Positions 7,601-25,920 of a stretch of 64,000 bases of DNA are shown here, one piece after another. The DNA lies in the NCBI GenBank assembly GCA_034620365.1, contig JAQGEQ010000161.1, forward strand, positions 806,001 through 870,000, in the 5' to 3' direction. This DNA is from Pegea sp. RAD2-039 (taxonomy: Eukaryota > Chordata > Thaliacea > Salpida > Salpidae). The number at the start of each line of letters is the position of its first letter. The stretch's first letter is position 1. The notes below the pieces were generated by a model that worked only from the letters and a program-made list of their open reading frames with translations, made no database searches and was not told the origin of the DNA. The translations under genes and the position numbers were made by a program.

Positions 7601-8347
7601 CTTCTTTAATATTACAATTCTAGTTTTCATTTTGAAATAATAATGCACCAATGGAGTGAACAGTTAATTAAAGAATTTTGACTGATTAATGAAGCTTTTT
7701 CTTTGAACTTTTGTTCATTTGTAAGTTGGCATCTCTCAGTTTTCTGGTTCAACTCAACAGAAAAGTTTTTTTTTTAGAAATATTAGCAAATTACTAAAAC
7801 TAGAAAAACTGAAAAGCATTTATTGAAAGCAGCTGATAATTATGATTGATAAATTTCTTTATAATTGCCCAACTGTCTAAACTCTAAACTAAACTTCTTT
7901 ATTATCAACTTACTAGTTTCATTTGCTATATTTAGTTGAAGTAATTATAACTTATCAATTGTAATTTTATACATTAAAAAAATAAATAGTCTATTGATTT
8001 AAAAGTTTTAAAAAAGTAAAGAAGTATACATTATTAGGAAATATAATTTATAAACATAAGAAAATTGAAATAAGAATGACTTGTAAGGTAGAAATTTGAC
8101 CTTTTGCTTTGCTTTTTTCTATTTCTCCAATCAACTCATTTATTAGATGCAAGTTCTCACATTCGACTAACAGAATTCAGCGAGAGTCTTTTAATTCAGT
8201 TAATGCAAAGCTCAACAATTTGTATTATGTCTTGTTGCTATAGTAACTGATATATAGAAAATTTTAAACGATATTTTTGCAGATTTATTTTATTGATAGA
8301 AATATTTTAAGAAAGAATCAATTAGAAGCAATTTGATTGGTTAAAAC
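1641..8347. other. AT-rich intergenic region between UNG and the GPCR
   Basis: No reading frame of useful length and no chain of splice-compatible exons was found on either strand. The UNG promoter should lie just above 1640 and the GPCR promoter just below 8348, a divergent arrangement with about 6.7 kb between them. The only recognisable content is a LINE scrap near 2.45-2.60 kb. The rest is A/T-rich sequence with homopolymer runs. Confidence 0.6.
2445..2603 (+). mobile_element. CR1/Jockey-like LINE fragment (end of reverse transcriptase ORF)
   Basis: Read in one frame from 2442 the sequence gives PFTTYIRPK, a stop, then EFNSSVWSTHLKKDI followed by LKFVQRSFTRK. This is the conserved segment after the reverse transcriptase thumb in CR1/Jockey-type non-LTR elements (typical form YVRPxLEYxSxVWSPHLxKDI...VQRRFT). 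The TAA replaces the usual Leu/Ile codon, so the copy is dead. Similarity ends in a T-rich stretch near 2600. It is the part of the protein missing from the larger LINE remnant at 24 kb, so it is a separate insertion and not a piece of that one. Confidence 0.7.
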
Positions 8348-11300
8348 ATGGTAACTAGTCCATCACTATTTGTAAATAATCAAACCTTTAATCATCTAAT
8401 CAACAACATCACTCAACTGCCATGGCTACCGTACAACGATACTCTTCGGGTCTTTGAAATCATTTATCTGACTTTACTAATGGTTGGAGGAAGCTGCGGA
8501 AATATTCTTGTGATCTCTTCTATCATTTTTGAAAGAAGAGTTAGTCGTAGCGGCAACATCTTCATCATTAATCTTGCTTGTGCTGACTTACTGGTAAGTG
8601 TATCAAAACATACTTCGTTCCGCTTCACTAAACACTACTTTTACTCGACTTAGCTTAACGAGCATTAAATGCATTTTGAACTAGATGATCAGTAGTCTTT
8701 ACTCTTTTGTCAGATTAGTTGGAAATCACAATTGATAGGATATTTATTATGAATAATCTTTAGAATTACATAAAAAGTTTTTTACTGCAATGAACTGATT
8801 CGAAAAAAAATTCTATTTGTTATGATTTTGTCAAATATTTACATATTTTTAGTTTTAAAGGTTTTGGTTGCATTGTTAAAAAGTTTCTTTGTAACCAGTG
8901 CAGAATTTTATACATAACTTATATACTTTAGAGTATTTGTACAATTGATAACAACAAGCAAATTGTTTTTCACTATTAGGCATCTTATTTTGTATAAATA
9001 ATTTAACAATCTATTTTTCTATAAAACATTTAGAATATCGATAATTTAAACTACAGATGGATTTTGTTATCAAAAATTTTTTTAAAGATTTTTTTGTCTA
9101 TCTTTCAATAATGGGTTATATTTCATCTACTTTAATCTAAACATAAGTAACTTTTAGTTTTATATAAAGCTTTTATAAAGCATTTTTATCTAAACATTTT
9201 GTTATATCTATTTGTCAACAAAGTAAAAAAAAAACATAAAATTACGTCAAAAAGTTCACTAACATTTTTTAAAGATTTCTTTTAGCAACTTTCTTATGAT
9301 TTAATCTCATTAACAGATGTCCATTTCTTCAAATTTAAAAAATAAATAAGTTTTCAGTTTTTCTAAAATTAAATTAGCTTTACAAAATTGTCAAATAATC
9401 AAAAGCATGAAAAATTTGTTTACAATAAATAATGAGACAAAGAATTATTTAATTTTTCATGATGGTTATATAAATGATTAATAGGGAGAAAGTTTTCAAA
9501 TTTTCTACATTAAATCAAAAGTATCTTCTCTTTTTTCAAAATGATATTTGTTTACTGAATGTTTAATTTTCATTTAAAAAGCTATTAGTCATATAAAAAC
9601 ATTACAACAAGTTTATGATAAAAACCTATGATAAAAAGTTCATTTAGATATTTTTACAAACGAATTTTGTATTCAGGCAACTGGTATTTATGTACCAAGT
9701 ATGCTAGCAAATGTGATTAAAAGAGGAGAGAACGCATTGGGAAATCCACCTGTTTTGTGTAGTATTTTTGGTTATGGAATTACTTATTGTTGCGCTTGTT
9801 CTATCCAAACTTTGTCAGTAATATCACTTAATAGGTAAGTTAATAGTTTTTTTTGATAATTAAATAAACATAAAAATAATTTTTGGTAAGGAAATGGTAA
9901 TAATAAAACTCTTTACTTTCATCATTGTAATTATGCGAGGCTAGCTTACCTGATTGGTAACAGGCAAACGAGTTTTTTAATTTCTGAGAAACAAATAGAC
10001 TGAATAAAATAATAACGAAATAAGCGATGTATAAAATGGTCTGTTTAAAAAAACTGAAATTATTAAAAAGTTAAACCTTATACTTGATTAACTACTAGTT
10101 TATATGTTTCTGCCAAAAATTTATTTTAAAAGTATACAGAGTAAACAACAAATAGATTACGTGACAAAAATTTAGATTTTTAGTGACATTTATTTAAATT
10201 TTTAATTTTAATTAAAGTTTCGAGCCTAGAACTTCTTGTAAACAATTTTTATTCCTTTTTGATTCAATAATAAATAACTGAAGATTATCTTCAAACTAAT
10301 AAATCTTATGTTTGTCTTAACGATTACTTCACCTGAGATTGATTTATAGTAAAACATTTGAATATTCTAAAAATATTTACCATATCCCAATTTTTTAACA
10401 TCTCTTGGAATTACCTTTACATAAAAAAGATGTTAACATTTGTAATCAAATCTGCAAGGTTTTTTTTTTGTAAGATGATTACATGCTTTGTTACTACTAT
10501 CCAAGCTTTTAATAAATTGAGTTTATAATAAATGCAAAAAATTATTAAATAATAAATGAAGCATGTTGTTTTGACTACATTTAATGTATATCAGGTACAT
10601 GGCAATTGTTAGAAATCGTTCTTATAAAAGATTCTTCTCGAAGATGAGTTGTGTTGGATGGGTGATTTTTATTTGGGCCTGGCCAAATGTTTTGATGTTA
10701 CCGACATTATTCGGTGATTGGAGTGGCTTGAGGTAAAATACACTCCATTTATTATCGACTTTTTATTCAAATTTTACTATTAGGTTTAATTTGAGTTACT
10801 GCAAATTGCAATTCACTAAAAGCGTGAATATTCAAAAACATATGTTTATAAAGTAACTACAAACTCTATTTACACTAAAAATTTTCCCAAGAAATGTTGT
10901 CACATTTCACACTAAAATCTAGAAATATTATTACATCCGTTTTTCAGTATTATTGGAAGAAACAGAACTTCAAGTTCAGTTCAAGTCATAGTATTAAATA
11001 AAGTTAAAATAATTTAGCTATTAGTGTACTAAAATTACTTTATTTATAAATAAATTTATGCAAAAAAAAGTAATCCTCAGTCTATTAATATGATAATTTC
11101 TGTGACTTCAAAACCAGAAACCATAATTGACGTAAATATATATAAATAAGATAATAGTTTCACGTGACAATTAAATATTTAATAAAATCAACTTGAGGTA
11201 TTTAGAAATTTTATCTTTAAAACTTTTTAGTAATACTAATCGAAGAACTTTTATAACTAATAATTAGTAGTCGAAAGTGCTTAAAAAATGCACAATAACG

Positions 11301-17829: not shown

Positions 17830-20800
17830 ATGTTGTTTTTAATAAAGGCTTTAAATGGTCTCTTATTTGTATCACTGCTTATTAACTTTACTTCATCAAC
17901 AAATACTTCAATTTCTGAAAATGTAGTTAAGAATAATGTGAAGGTATGTGACATTTTTATTAGGTTATTTCTTAAACAGAACGTAAAAAAAATGTTATTA
18001 ACATTTTTATGTTAATGAATATATAAACTATCTGATTTGACAAAAGTTTCTTTAAACTTAGCACACAACAAAGTCTCAAGTTCTTGTTACTCTGCCCAAA
18101 TCATCTTTGGCCACCCCGAAGCAATTGATTAAAAGCAAGTCTTCTAAACAACCTGGTAATAGAGAATACTTTTTGGCTGATTCAATTAATAATCTTATTC
18201 ATGAGTTGCAGAAGTTAAAGTTAAACAACCAAAAGTTGAAGGTACTTTAGCTGATTCTGAAGAATGTGCTGAAGATGTAACCAGACTTTGTTCAAAACGA
18301 AAGTCAAAAAATGATTTTAGTTTAATTGCTTGTTTAAGCGATGGAGCAGCAGTGAGTTTGAACAATTTTCTGAAAATAGCTTATTTACAATTATTAGCTT
18401 TTGAATTAAAAAAAATTCTTTTTTTTATAGAAAGGTCACGTTTCAGATAGTTGTAATCAAGTAAGTTATTTTTATTATCTGTTTGATAACGTTTCATTCT
18501 AGAATTTGTTAATATTACCATTCATTTCTAAACTATCATTTTTCACCCTTTTTATATTATTAACGTTCCATGTAATTGTTCACTGTTATATATTTTGAGG
18601 ACTTCTGAAATGTCATGTGTTACATCTTTTACTTTCTATATTTTTGACTAAATAGATATTATTTGTGAGAATATGTGTTAGCGAGAGGTGCTTTCTTCAG
18701 GCACCTTCCTTCGCATTTATTGTAATAAACAAATAATTAATTCTATTATTCTTCGGTAGCTTGTTTGGGAGTATAAAATGAACATCACGACAGATAGACG
18801 CCTTGATAATAGAGTCTTACAACAATGCAAAAATATAATGGTGAGTTTTTGCTTCAGGTTCTTTAAACTTTTTAATTAGTTTGATTTATTTCTCAGGGAG
18901 ATTATTCAAAGTGCCAAACATATCTCCCTGGGTCTGGTAAATTAGTTCCTTGTCTATTAAACTATCTGGATGAAATAAGTCTTAAAAATTTACAATGTGC
19001 AAGTTACTTAAGGGAGTTTGCTGGATTGATATATGCTGATTACAGGTAGAAAATTCAACAACTAATTAAAGGGCATCACAAGAATTTCCATTTTCAGGTT
19101 AATTTGTAATTTTATGGAAGATTGTAAAGATGACATAAAAAAATATGAATGTGGTAAAGTTCAAGTTGGAGATTTTAGAGATATGCATGTAAGACAAAGT
19201 AAAGATAGTGAAGCAAGTTGCTGATATTATTGTTACAGACAACGAGTCACTCTCAAGGCCAAGTGATTACTTGCCTAGAAGAAAAACTAGCTTCCAGTAA
19301 AATTATATCGCACACATGCGTCAAACAAATTTATCGACTATTAGAGCTACAAGCAGATGACTTTAATATGGACAGACACTTGTATTTAAGTTGTAAAGAT
19401 GACCGTGAACTTCTGTGTGAAACAGTATGTGTTTGTATGTTGAAGGTAAGCTATCAAAGTTGATATGGTTTACAGGTGGTTGCTGGTGACGGGGCAGTTT
19501 ATGAATGTTTATTTCGTCATAAATTTGATGAACATATGTCAAATGAGTGTAGAGAGGCAATCACCCTTCGACAAAAACTAATCTCGCAGGATTACATGGT
19601 TAATAACGATAAGCTGAATACTGTTTACTGATTGGTAGCTTATAGGCGAGTTTTCGAGTCCACCAATCTTGTTATCAACACATTAACAATTATCGTTGTA
19701 TGGAAAGAGTTGAAAAAGGAATTAATGATCATCAAGATCATGTTGGTCTCTCTACAATCCTTCTATGTCTAGAAGATGAACAATTGAAAGGAAGTAAGTA
19801 TCATGTATACAAGCTGCTCACCCCTACATTTGTTTTGTTGTTGTAGATGTCATTAATGGCAAATGTTTAGGAGTATTAAACAGTTTCCGACAACAATTAT
19901 TAGAAGATTATGAGATCTCTCCAGAGATTGTTCATAATTGTGCCCCAGTAATTTCTGAGTATTGTAATGGAGGTATTAAAAAGCAGGGTGAGACGTTGCA
20001 TTGTATCATGCAAACAGTTCATGAAAAACCTGGAACTGCGAGCGAACAGTGTGAAGCGGCGGTAAGCGCTTTTATATACTGATGACGTCATTGATCGCGT
20101 CTTATCGAAGGTGATGACGTTATTGAAAGAAACTGACGTCGAAAATCAGTTTCAATTGGATTTATCACTCACCTCTTCATGTATGCCTGTCATCAAGTCT
20201 ATTTGTCGCGCTTCTAATCCTTCTGATTTCGGGTTAGTGACAGTAGTGACGTCATCACTATCTTAAATGACGTCATCATCAGGGTTCTATCATGTCTTCT
20301 GGACAATATTCACTCGCCAAAAATGGTCCCTGATTGCGAACAGAAGCTTATTGATGTCCAATACTTTGTGGGCCGCAACTTTTTGTAAGATTGTCTTAAT
20401 CTAAGTATAGTAACGCGAGTGTATGACGTCATAGCATCGACAAACGCTTCAACATGGCTTGTCGTGATGACGCGATGAAGTTCTGCTTTCAAGATATGTC
20501 AGACATCGAACGAAATAATGATGAAGTTGATCGACAGATGCCAGTGGGTCTCGTCCTATCTTGTCTGAATCGTCACACATCCGCCTATCATCATGAAAAC
20601 AAGGTCAGTGATTTGTGACGTGATTAGTGATGACGTGTCTGGTGTGTAGGGTAAGTCTGTGGGGCGCAAATGCGAGGAACAAGTGAAGCGGGTGCTGAGG
20701 GGCCGTGCCCTTGATTATCAGTTGAACCCGAGTCTGGAAGAAAGCTGCAGGAGTGAATTAGGTCGCTTATGCTCAATTACTCAACCAGCTAAAGGAGAGG

Positions 20801-22967
20801 TATTGCTGGATGCTGTATCTTCCTGATAACGTCATCGTTGATTCTTAGGAGCTGAAATGTCTTCAAGACAACTATGCTGAGATTGCGATTGGGTCAAACT
20901 GTCAGTTATCGATTCGAGAGTTGACAAGGTTGGAGTCGGAAAGTGTGGTGGATGTTGAAGGTATCTTGGTGAAGGAGTGCGAGAAGATGTTGAAGCAGTT
21001 TTGCGCGGTAATGACGTCACCAAATCTATTTGATCGATTTAATATGAAGGTTTAGGAACTGCTGGAAGATAATGATGAAGGTAAGGTGATGGAATGTTTG
21101 ATCAGCAACAAGAACAATATGGAAAGCGAGAAGTGTGCTGCCGGCGTGGAACATTTCCAACTAGTAGGTGGTAAACATGTTGATGTTGAATTAGTTGATA
21201 GTTTTGTAGGTGGAGATGAAAGATTATCAATTCGATTACAAATTCATGAAAAATTGTCGAATTGATGCAAAGAAGCTTTGTTTGAAGCAATCAGAAGCGA
21301 TGGGAAAGTAAGCTTCAAGTAATTTATAGAAAGTTTTAAACTAACATGTTGTAGATCTGAAATTGTTCGCTGTTTGAGTGAAATCATTCGCGATGACGTC
21401 ATCAAGGAGGTTGAAAGTCGAGTTTCAGAAGATTGTCGAAGTCAAGTGAAAGTAGAGAAGTTACAACTGGTGATTGGTTGATCTTTTCTTACTTCTCACT
21501 AAACTTCTAATTTGTAGCATGAAAATATTCGGTTTGATCCTATTGTGAGTAAGAAGTGTTTGAAAGATGTTGAGATGTTCTGTAGTGAGCTCTCTGCTGG
21601 TCATGCGCGAGTTATTGATTGCTTGAGGAAGCATAAAAGTAATTTGAGTAAAGACTGCCGCAAAGAGATCTTCCGAATTCAGGTTAGATATTCAAATAAG
21701 AGATCTAATCTGAGTTGAAATTGTACAGAAAGAAGAAGTCGATAACCCATCTTTAGATTTCAAATTGATGAAGATCTGTAAACATGATCTTCGTCTCCGT
21801 TGTCTCTCTGAGCTTAAACGAAATGATGCAGGATTGATTCTGGAGTGCCTTATATCACATAAGAGTAGTCTTGAGAAGCGGTATGATCTCATCTTACATT
21901 TTTCTTCTACTCATCTCTTCTATACACAGTTGTCATCATCTGGTTGTTGAGCGCGAGATAGAATCATTTGATGACGTCAATCTAAATCCAGATTTAATGA
22001 GTAGTTGCTCCTTTGAGATTAAACATCATTGTCAAGATGAATTTGAAAAATTGAAAGATTTAGAGAAGTATGGGGAAGATCCATCCGGGAATGTTTATTC
22101 GTGTCTCAAGAAAGCTTTTTCATCGAAAAAGGTTTTCCCTCCTCCCCCCCCCCCTCCCCTAACATCTTCTGCATCTATTTCTCTCAGGAGATGTCAAATC
22201 AGTGTCGAAGACATGTACTCTTCGTCATTCGACAACAAGCTGACAACCTCTTTCTCAATCCCAAGTTGACTCTTGATTGCATCGAACCAGTTAGTCTACA
22301 TCTTCATCTTCTTTTATAACCACCATTTTGTAGATACAGAAGTTTTGTGTTCAAAACACTGAAGTTGAATGTTTGAAACAAGCTTACTATGAAGGCAAAC
22401 TACTTTCCTACAGAGCTTGTCTCAGGGTAAGTAGTTGATGAGATTACCTTCAAATTACTCAAATTGATTTTTAGGAAGTCGCAAATGTTCTAATGGAAAG
22501 TCGATCAGATGTGAATGCAGATCCAGAACTCGCTGAAGCGTGCGGTAATGACGTCATCAAGTTCTGTCGAAATGTTGAAGAGGGAAATGGCCGAAGTGGG
22601 TTTGTGATTGGTTGTTTCTAGTTACTTTAATATCAAATCTACAGAAATCAAATGTCTGTTGGATTTGAATGATCAAGACAAAAACATTTTAATGCCTGAT
22701 TGTCATGAGCAATTATTACTTCGCAAACGAATGTGGGCTGTTTCTGATGTAAGTTTCCATTCTATTTTATGTCTCGAGTGATTCAAATTTGATTTTGAAC
22801 AGAGACAAGTTGAAAATCTGAACGATGTGGTGGATATAGTGTCAAGTAGCAAACACGCGAGCTTTTTTTATTCTATTTTCTGTCTTTTAATTTTTGTTGT
22901 TTTGTTTATGGGGCTCATATGTGGAAGAGCTAGTGGAAGACATTATAAGATGTTAAAGAATAGGTAA
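17830..22967 (+). CDS. GLG1: Golgi apparatus protein 1 (cysteine-rich FGF receptor / E-selectin ligand 1 orthologue)
   Basis: Type I membrane glycoprotein of the Golgi. In vertebrates it binds FGFs and E-selectin and affects secretion. Twenty-seven exons: 17830-17943, 18062-18155, 18212-18351, 18431-18460, 18760-18840, 18897-19045, 19098-19188, 19239-19424, 19476-19598, 19646-19793, 19847-20061, 20111-20232, 20283-20384, 20435-20603, 20650-20799, 20849-21007, 21056-21163, 21210-21307, 21355-21469, 21518-21682, 21729-21880, 21930-22131, 22188-22289, 22334-22426, 22475-22595, 22645-22748, 22803-22967. All join in frame, about 1165 aa, near the vertebrate length. Signal peptide at residues 1-22. 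The lumenal part is a series of roughly 60-residue Cys-rich GLG1 repeats (for example ADDFNMDRHLYLSCKDDREL and YECLFRHKFDEHMSNECREA). One TM helix near the end is followed by the short tail GLICGRASGRHYKMLKNR. TAG directly precedes the ATG in frame. Apart from introns 1, 3 and 4, all introns are 44-56 nt. Confidence 0.97.
20083..22556. repeat. Cluster of TGACGTCA palindromes within GLG1
   Basis: Eight exact copies start at 20083, 20247, 20268, 20424, 21012, 21394, 21972 and 22549. Near copies lie at 20115, 20134, 20616, 20631 and 20827. The first five are in introns; the last three are in exons, encoding Asp-Val after Asp or Asn. Several extend to GATGACGTCATC-like palindromes. The octamer is the CREB/ATF site, but its spread through introns and exons does not look like a promoter. 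Confidence 0.85.
22137..22159 (+). repeat. Poly-C/pyrimidine tract in GLG1 intron 22
   Basis: A run of about a dozen C bases with few interruptions sits just after the donor of the 56-nt intron 22132-22187. It is the only long C homopolymer in this AT-rich window and may be prone to sequencing or replication slippage. It is intronic, so length change would not shift the frame. Confidence 0.85.
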
Positions 22968-23869: not shown

Positions 23870-25920
23870 CACCAAGTCATCGTCAACGACGAAACACGTC
23901 TTAATTTGAATAATTGGTCGTTAGGGCGGTGATCCTCGTTATCAAAGTTTAACGTTACATGGTTGAGTATCAGACAGAATAATTTGAAGCTTGAACAACA
24001 CCAGTGATTCTGACATGACAATGTCTGATGGAAGCTGGCTCCATGTACTTATTGTGCTGTATGAGAAAAAAATTCGCTCTGATTAATGTACCAGGTGATA
24101 TGGGCTTATTAAGATGTAATGTGTGTCGTCTGAGTTGATATAACTTGAGGGAAGGATTAATGGAAAAGAAATCATCAAACTGATTTCAATTAAATTATGG
24201 ATCCTTAGAATTAAAGGTCTTTATAATAAGGTAGACAAGGTTGATTGATTTTCCAAAGATTTTGGAAACATAATTGTGCCATTTAAAGTCAGATGATAGA
24301 GTAATGGTAAGGTCCAGGACCGAAGATACTCGTTGAATAATAAATCTATTGATGGAGTATTGGTTCAAGGAATTATGAGCTGGTTTACGAGAAAAAATTA
24401 TAAGTTTTTTTTATTGGTTTACTTCGTTAGCTGGATTCTGAGCTGCCAATTCATAGACCAGTTTTCTACAGTGTGTAGTGCAGTTTGAAGTTTTGAAGGA
24501 TTACAAGATAATAGCTTGATGTCATCTGCATATACAAACACACTGACATCATCTACTGCTACTAGTCTTCTGATGAGGCCTTCAATGAAAATTAAAAAGA
24601 GAAGGGGACCCAGAACGGAACCCTGAGGAACACCACTGGTGATTTGACTAGGAGTAGATAAAGATCTTTCTATACGAGTTTGTTGGGTTCTACCTGATAA
24701 GTAATCTTCAATCCACTGTAAGATAAAGCTGTTGATTTTTAAGTTTTTCAATACAGTAACGAGCTTAGTGTGTGCGACAGAATCAAACGCCTTAGCAAAA
24801 TCGAGGTTTATGAGCTGTAAGCTCATTAAGAAAAGTGAGATGTTGAGTCAGGGAAGATCTCCCTTTCACAAAGCTATGCTGGCCATCAGATATTAGATGG
24901 TGCTCCATCAAATGATTGGTCATATGATTGTGAATGATATGCTCTTTAGTTATTGAGATAACTCTTTTTGATTCTATAAAAAGGCATAAATTTCTCAATT
25001 GACTCTTTAAAGATGTTAGTAAGCCTTGAGTAAATAGTATTGATGTCTTCGATAGAGTTGGAAACAGAAATCTAGTCCACGTCTGATAGAAATTCATACA
25101 TATGATAATAGCTTCCACGATAAAAATTCATTTTGCTTGAAGTTTTAACGTTTACTGAAAAAGTTTGATGGAGCTTGAATTCAATCATATTGTGATCGCA
25201 TGTCAAAGCAAAAGGTTCTTTTTGATCAACGTAGATAATATTCTGAAGGTTTGATGTGATGAGAAGATTCAAAGTATTACCACTAACTTGGGTTAGAAAA
25301 GTAAGAGATTGGTTTTAAGCATTGAGGAAGCTTACAAAGGCATGGCTTGAAATTTGAAGCAGAATTATCGCTATCGAAGTTAAATGGTTTTCCCACAAAT
25401 GTTGAATTCGGGTTATTCCAATCAATTTTGCTAAAATTAAAATCCTTCAAAACATATAACTCAGGACACACAACACTCTTCAGAACCTTCACTAAGGCCT
25501 TAACAGTAAACTCATCATTAATTTTAGAGGATGGAAGCTAGATATAAAACGCGAAAATTTGGACTTTGAGTAATAAAAATCAAAAGCGATAATCTCAAAC
25601 CCTGAACAATTAATGGCATCGATATGAATTCTAGAGATCATGGGTGCAAGCGATATTTTGTAAATTACGCAAACACCGCCGCCTCTATCATACAGTCTGT
25701 CACAACGCGAAAGACAAAAAAGATTACCGTCAACCATAAAGGAATCAAGATACAACGGTTTCAACCAAGTTTCAGTAATAAAACAAATGTGAAATCTTGA
25801 GATGTGATATCTATGGCTACTAGTATCATTTTTGCAATTTCATTAAAGAGCCGATTTTCCTACTTATTAATTAAACAGTTTTGTAGACTAATATTTTGTT
25901 GAAGTGATCAAAAGTAAGAT
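23870..25920 (-). mobile_element. Decayed CR1/Jockey-like non-LTR retrotransposon (endonuclease plus reverse transcriptase)
   Basis: Read on the minus strand in several frames. The AP-endonuclease part begins near 25,900 and shows FITETWLKP, RGGGVCVIYK, KDFNFSKIDW (usual GDFN) and CDHNMIEF (usual SDH). The reverse transcriptase follows: QHSFVKGRSS, INLDFAKAFDSVAH, SGVPQGSVLGPLLFLIFI and the catalytic VYADDIKLL near 24,530. Beyond the stop at 24,419 the protein continues in other frames. SSDFKWHNYVSKI lies near 24,280, then LKLYQLRRHTLHLNKP and ANFFSHT near 24,100, and STWSQLPSDIV near 24,030, the usual C terminus. The YxRP...VWSPHL segment is missing between them. At least five frameshifts or stops make it inactive. 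It lies about 0.9 kb after GLG1 on the opposite strand. Frames are too broken for a certain clade; L2/CR1/Jockey are all possible. Confidence 0.9.

Follow-up and report, generated by a model that had tools for sequence, protein, structure and literature searches.

A palindromic octamer in genome-wide excess in a salp, and its possible reading by a dimeric transcription factor

Palindromes in a GLG1-like gene

The window analysed here is a stretch of 64,000 bases from the salp Pegea sp. RAD2-039 (assembly GCA_034620365.1, contig JAQGEQ010000161.1, positions 806,001 to 870,000 of the forward strand), and we describe the palindromic octamer TGACGTCA, which is repeated within one of its genes. A 715-residue part of the protein predicted from that gene matches the Pfam family Cys_rich_FGFR (PF00839) in 11 stretches (E 9e-101), and we take the protein to be GLG1-like, a Golgi cysteine-rich protein. 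The gene probably extends beyond its predicted end, to a real 3' end near 22965, as judged by eye. The features are listed below; exact copies were located by exact count and placed by the gene model, and near copies were read from the sequence.

17830..22781, plus strand: GLG1-like cysteine-rich repeat gene, 26 predicted exons (gene model and Pfam PF00839)
20083..20090, no strand: TGACGTCA, intronic
20115..20122, no strand: near copy TGACGTTA, in predicted exon 20111-20230 (gene model)
20134..20141, no strand: near copy TGACGTCG, coding, Asp-Val (ETDVEN in the predicted protein)
20247..20254, no strand: TGACGTCA, intronic
20268..20275, no strand: TGACGTCA, intronic, sharing its intron with the copy at 20247
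20424..20431, no strand: TGACGTCA, intronic
21012..21019, no strand: TGACGTCA, intronic
21394..21401, no strand: TGACGTCA, coding, GAC-GTC (Asp-Val)
21972..21979, no strand: TGACGTCA, coding, GAC-GTC (Asp-Val)
22549..22556, no strand: TGACGTCA, coding, GAC-GTC (Asp-Val), in a CxxDVxxxC repeat position (also from the predicted protein)

All eight exact copies in the window fall within 20083-22556, and in 100 dinucleotide-preserving shuffles the mean count was 0.19 and the maximum 2, none reaching eight. The original prediction had reported eight palindromes in 2.5 kb of one gene, five intronic and three coding, accompanied by near copies, with no further exact copy in the window and less than one expected in 64 kb; all of this is confirmed, the division between introns and coding sequence under the predicted gene model. 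The spacing around the last coding copy, at 22549, is common to sister repeats of the predicted protein (for example CLKDVEMFC and CKHDLRLRC). Because the sister repeats have identical spacing, this copy was gained by substitution and not by insertion.

A genome-wide excess

In the genome as a whole (105.7 Mb in 387 contigs), with the reversed word as the control for each count, TGACGTCA occurs 27,792 times and its reverse ACTGCAGT 969 times, which gives a ratio of 29 and a density of ~263 per Mb. One palindrome is hugely over-represented genome-wide, as in a highly iterated palindrome (HIP) system. The palindrome bias across the genome that had been offered as one reading is thus real, the counts being the opposite of equal to expectation, and the earlier observation was right while understating the scale of the phenomenon. 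The word TGACGTCAT has 17,624 copies on one strand and 18,067 on the other, where its reverse has 304 and 301 (~59-fold), and the 16-bp palindrome GTGATGACGTCATCAC occurs 154 times against 0. GTGATGACGTCATCAC is found on 13 contigs among the 50 places listed, and contig C1 holds eight of the 154 copies, about its share of the genome; a chromosome-specific signal of the dosage-compensation kind was rejected on these grounds. ATGATGTCAT, the CpG-decay neighbour in the preferred flank, is raised ~12-fold (998 and 1,020 against 89 and 84 reversed), partly by a tandem array on C3.

Context was studied in a sample of 317,934 non-overlapping bases with 96 copies of TGACGTCA, made up of the window, 20 pieces of C1 (each 10 kb long and spaced at a fixed step of 100 kb), 40 kb picked for density, and small motif-search loci. 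Its sole unselected part is the fixed-step 200 kb, which holds 15 copies, or 0.075 per kb, below the genome mean of 0.263. Gene models came from a home-made hidden-Markov gene finder trained on this sequence alone and are predictions without a transcript check; in some of them neighbouring genes are probably fused, and the model at L028 starts with ATG5 while its two copies lie far downstream.

Among palindromic octamers with more than three copies in the sample, only TGACGTCA and TCACGTGA exceed 5-fold when a 20-bp minisatellite at L029 is masked. TCACGTGA, an E-box type dimer site, had been picked as a control because it is a palindrome of equal composition, and is itself raised genome-wide (4,614 against 237 reversed); 13 of its 16 sample copies lie within predicted exons or introns, and examples in the window stand at 11160 and 57252.

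The copies of TGACGTCA are also clustered. Of 99 successive spacings on C1, 38 do not exceed 1 kb, compared with 6.1 expected, and clusters extend over ~5-40 kb (for example C1:1209948-1215007, C1:2014300-2051399 and C8:458836-468109). At L032, a BTB-domain gene at 8080-9675 carries 21 copies in 1.6 kb, partly through tandem duplication of coding units, and at ~2720-4830 of L029 the minisatellite, with ~100 units, lies within a dense motif region.

Form, independence and sharpness of the motif

The aligned flanks of the 96 copies give a 14-bp palindrome, TGATGACGTCATCA, with main-base frequencies of 0.68, 0.51 and 0.64 at the outer three positions of each side and background beyond 3 bp per side; this form, in our judgement, resembles extended ATF/JDP2-type sites. 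The intronic flanks read in gene sense (37 sites) are roughly symmetric. Because the flanks are symmetric, what is recognised seems to be a DNA duplex that has two-fold symmetry.

Flank comparison indicates that most copies arose independently, since 89 of the 96 have unrelated flanks; at least 24 of 40 flank bases are shared by five of 4,560 copy pairs, all of them neighbours, which involve the other seven copies. Homology beyond the motif, the mark of a transposable element or satellite, is thus confined to 7 of the 96, and such an origin is ruled out by the unrelated flanks. The local tandem duplicates among these seven would suit an origin by short insertions or by scars of mobile-element excision. 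We nevertheless regard this origin as very improbable, given that no flank is held in common beyond 14 bp and that the copy at 22549 fits an existing repeat spacing without insertion.

The preference for the exact word is sharp. In the 33 genes with at least two introns, the exact word is found 79 times against 0.63 expected (125-fold), and one-mismatch forms 50 times against 24.1 (2.1-fold); the corresponding counts are 37 against 0.13 and 19 against 7.4 in introns, and 42 against 0.52 and 31 against 16.6 in exons. The fold figures for the exact word are inflated because density-chosen regions are included; over the whole genome the word outnumbers its reverse 29-fold. If copies were ageing neutrally, one-off forms should be more numerous, except in the case of very young copies. 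Unrelated flanks, the sharp exact-word preference and the spread over exons and introns together argue that the word is neither a transposon nor an ageing repeat nor a local enhancer.

This contrast between exact (~125-fold) and one-off (2.1-fold) forms also resembles the profile given for uptake sequences and a HIP1 palindrome (PMC1939737), and it can be read in favour of the main rival to the explanation that we prefer below, namely motif-biased conversion, a molecular drive in which the TGACGTCA allele would be the preferred donor in germline recombination and would accumulate where recombination is frequent, with no benefit to the host. In keeping with conversion, exons are altered as well as introns, copies are clustered over ~5-40 kb, and loaded genes are slightly GC-richer (0.291 against 0.256 in introns, 0.332 against 0.273 at third positions). 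However, a break-initiating site is normally lost through conversion. The known hotspot of the cAMP response element (CRE) type, fission yeast ade6-M26 (ATGACGT), initiates breaks, and not every CRE is a hotspot, as described for that locus (PMC9775316). We therefore consider conversion unlikely, although the data here do not separate it from selection.

Placement in genes and effect on proteins

Predicted exons hold 42 of the 96 sample copies, introns 37 and intergenic DNA 16, with one copy shared between exon and intron; 10 of the 16 intergenic copies lie 500 bp or less from a predicted gene. The unselected 200 kb has seven exonic, five intronic and three intergenic copies in 45.9, 29.2 and 124.9 kb, respectively. 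Coding and non-coding DNA alike thus carry the word, as in HIP-type systems, though unevenly, with intergenic DNA poor. That a spread of this kind (42 exonic and 37 intronic copies) speaks against an ordinary enhancer, as had been argued, holds in the sample. Nor does the placement at promoters or enhancers that is typical of CRE sites appear: 80 of the 96 copies lie in or overlap predicted gene bodies, and of the 93 copies whose piece also contains a gene, 12 are 500 bp or less upstream and 16 are 500 bp or less downstream of a predicted gene start. A check for enrichment had been proposed in introns, in exons and in the vicinity of splice sites; the first two are both enriched in the 33 genes with at least two introns, but the intronic sample copies keep no fixed distance from splice sites.

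The last point bears on a signal at the RNA level, that is, one acting on splicing or transcript stability in the pre-mRNA. Short introns are rich in copies (28 in 11.9 kb) and six genes with at most one intron have none, as such a signal might predict. Yet the 14-bp two-fold symmetry and the near-equal use of exons and introns point to duplex DNA and not to RNA, and with splice-site distances unfixed as well, there is very little to recommend an RNA signal.

Loading per gene is unequal (P ~0.02 in 26 unselected genes), and one gene, that at L032, holds 21 copies. One of six G-protein-coupled receptor loci has a copy (one in 22.7 kb). The NOP56/58-like, titin-like, PIG-S and TBCD genes (L015, L017, L023 and L026) are predicted to be single-exon or nearly so in this intron-rich genome, and are without TGACGTCA. 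A simple rule based on housekeeping genes was rejected: the single-exon NOP56/58-like, TBCD and PIG-S genes have no copies, while glycogen synthase has four and alpha-galactosidase two.

The word is visible in the predicted proteins. Exonic copies occupy both stop-free frames, 26 of the 42 giving Asp-Val and 16 Thr-Ser, the absence of copies in the third frame being imposed by the gene model itself, which bars stops. The original claim that coding copies always give Asp-Val is correct for all three in the window (GAC-GTC) and fails in the sample at large. In genes with at least two copies there are 61 Asp-Val pairs against 36 expected, 29 of them GAC-GTC against 4.0, and 72 Thr-Ser pairs against 42, with ACG-TCA at 15 against 3.0; this excess is partly circular because the motif was used to choose those genes. 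When the most loaded gene is removed from this set, Asp-Val stands at 47 against 33 and GAC-GTC at 17 against 2.8, Thr-Ser at 59 against 39 and ACG-TCA at 7 against 1.9. All 42 genes together have 112 Asp-Val pairs against 92 expected and 30 GAC-GTC against 4.9. In genes with fewer than two copies, the codon pairs are not raised (GAC-GTC 1 against 1.7, ACG-TCA 2 against 1.6).

Several observations stand beside these. In short introns of the sample the word GTTGCTA, which to us resembles an RFX/X-box half site, is raised (10 against 0.7 on both strands, eight in gene sense). A duplicate or alternative haplotype of the GLG1-like gene, sought as a means of judging conservation, did not turn up; the search gave just a dispersed repeat of ~215 bp in one of its introns (18522-18736), for which 40 further matches (78-93% identity) were scored out of 2,705 candidates. 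On the minus strand at 24419-25839 of the window lies a remnant of a reverse transcriptase of long interspersed element type, judged by eye from reading frames.

A possible reader and the force that holds the copies

The octamer TGACGTCA is that of the cAMP response element (PMC1796609), and in the salp it comes with symmetric flanks. We tentatively favour, at somewhat less than even confidence, the explanation that this animal genome has a highly iterated palindrome, TGACGTCA as the core of TGATGACGTCATCA, which is concentrated within the bodies of genes that carry introns and is read by a bZIP protein of the ATF/CREB type. Copies would arise through point substitution and would be held by a weak directional force acting on the DNA duplex; if the system is near equilibrium, 4Nes (or 4Neb) would be about 3.4-5.6, these being the logs of enrichments of 29 to 279 under a stationary model of the exact word alone. 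The reader would be a protein dimer that binds DNA with the specificity of the CRE, and an ATF/CREB-type bZIP dimer is favoured because the word is the CRE; in its favour, the genome does contain bZIP exons (12 matches). Transcription-factor dimers are preferred over a repair or transposition enzyme because gene bodies show an excess of two classic dimer sites, TGACGTCA and TCACGTGA. Such a protein, if bound along the bodies of transcribed genes, might provide a signal for chromatin or expression that is distributed over them, possibly in the germline, and the sites would not serve as the enhancer of one gene. The dense CREB/ATF-binding array suggested at the outset fits in its word and in the 14-bp extension, with the binding itself putative.

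Several points weigh against this explanation. The number of bZIP exons in the genome looks ordinary (12 matches); a bZIP protein should accept variant sites, but one-off words show little enrichment (2.1-fold); and the AP-1-type word TGAGTCA has a raw count of 29 in the 318-kb sample. Loading is very uneven, with no copy in 17.9 kb of coding sequence of the six genes with at most one intron, some of them housekeeping by kind, although this zero is only suggestive because ~4 would be expected at the rate of 7 per 28.1 kb in exons of unselected intron-bearing genes. Finally, genes with fewer than two copies show no excess of Asp-Val (51 against 55.6 expected) or Thr-Ser (80 against 83.4).

The central CpG suggests a further explanation, in which it would be a target of methylation or repair and nearby mismatch repair would be biased to the word. 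Cytosine methyltransferases are present (11 DNA_methylase matches, seven of them in open frames of 832-873 residues), and CpG methylation in this genome is possible from these predicted genes. The stretch that we read looks to us like DNMT1. However, DNMT1-type enzymes recognise CpG and not an octamer. CpG observed/expected ratios give no clear signal (0.84 against 0.64 in exons of loaded genes, introns alike, per-gene correlation P 0.10). Upkeep of this kind has been proposed for HIP1 of cyanobacteria (PMC4390886), and we consider it improbable here. The seven long-frame matches lie on C57, C249, C32, C52 and L041, two of them convergent within ~7 kb on C57, and are perhaps retroposed or element-borne copies.

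The octamer behaves like the target of a sequence-specific directional force on gene-body DNA, by analogy with the highly iterated palindromes of bacteria but in an animal. A broader reading, which we regard as possible and hold with more reserve than the bZIP explanation, is that of a gene-body code: ~28,000 CRE octamers in exons and introns might be kept by selection or drive, bending codon and amino-acid use and flagging some of the intron-bearing genes for a process of the germline or of chromatin that has no known counterpart in animals.

Comparison with known systems

A keyword search of the literature, with most subscription journals and all preprints outside its scope, brought up, among its top results, no animal in which a comparable excess is described, which is weak evidence of novelty. 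Among the closest likenesses is HIP1 of cyanobacteria, one palindromic octamer in large genome-wide excess in coding and non-coding DNA (PMC4390886). The density of ~263 per Mb in the salp compares with 300-2,700 per Mb in most cyanobacteria tabulated there. The salp system differs from HIP1 in its word, in belonging to an animal and in being concentrated in some gene bodies, and among the DNA_methylase matches here, of which one stretch was read, no octamer-specific methyltransferase came to light. In DNA uptake sequences, for which the mismatch profile alone is compared, the exact word likewise stands far above one-off words: as tabulated, the exact excess is 1,129-fold for a cyanobacterial palindrome and 145-fold for an uptake sequence, with one-off words ~10-fold (PMC1939737). 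Uptake sequences, unlike TGACGTCA, are non-palindromic and belong to competent bacteria, and uptake is implausible in an animal. A similar mismatch profile is given for a C. elegans 9-mer, with 1,022 exact copies against 13 expected (~78-fold) and 1,161 one-off forms against 514 (as tabulated; ~1.3-fold is also given); this word is non-palindromic unlike TGACGTCA, and the passages concerned state that its function is not known and give no cause (PMC1939737).

Among systems that share the word itself, the CREB/ATF-bound cAMP response element is the identical octamer. Unlike here, where gene bodies are filled, the CREs of that survey cluster at start sites in vertebrates only, with no such clustering in sea squirt, fly or worm (PMC1796609). 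The ade6-M26 hotspot places a CRE-like word, there bound by Atf1-Pcr1, inside a coding region; it differs in being a single-locus effect, and the account of it describes no genome-wide accumulation of the word (PMC9775316).

Other animal systems are alike in part. The periodic A/T clusters of C. elegans are a pattern of intragenic non-coding DNA that counters germline silencing, so that the analogy is one of role only; those clusters are periodic A/T runs and not a palindrome in exons (PMC7725773). The loop-anchor motifs of ctenophores and placozoans are, like TGACGTCA, lineage-specific animal DNA motifs in many copies, and are read by a DNA-binding protein; unlike it, they are GC-rich or derived from transposon ends and lie at promoters and enhancers and not in gene bodies, and TGACGT is unmentioned in the passages that describe them (PMC12221973).

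If our reading is true, the genes of an animal can be reshaped throughout its genome by a force that is specific for one sequence, and selection for function and molecular drive become testable against each other with ~28,000 replicate sites. Bacteria are known to have highly iterated palindromes and uptake words; the salp would offer a comparable case in an animal, in which the word is a known transcription-factor site and is visible in protein sequence.

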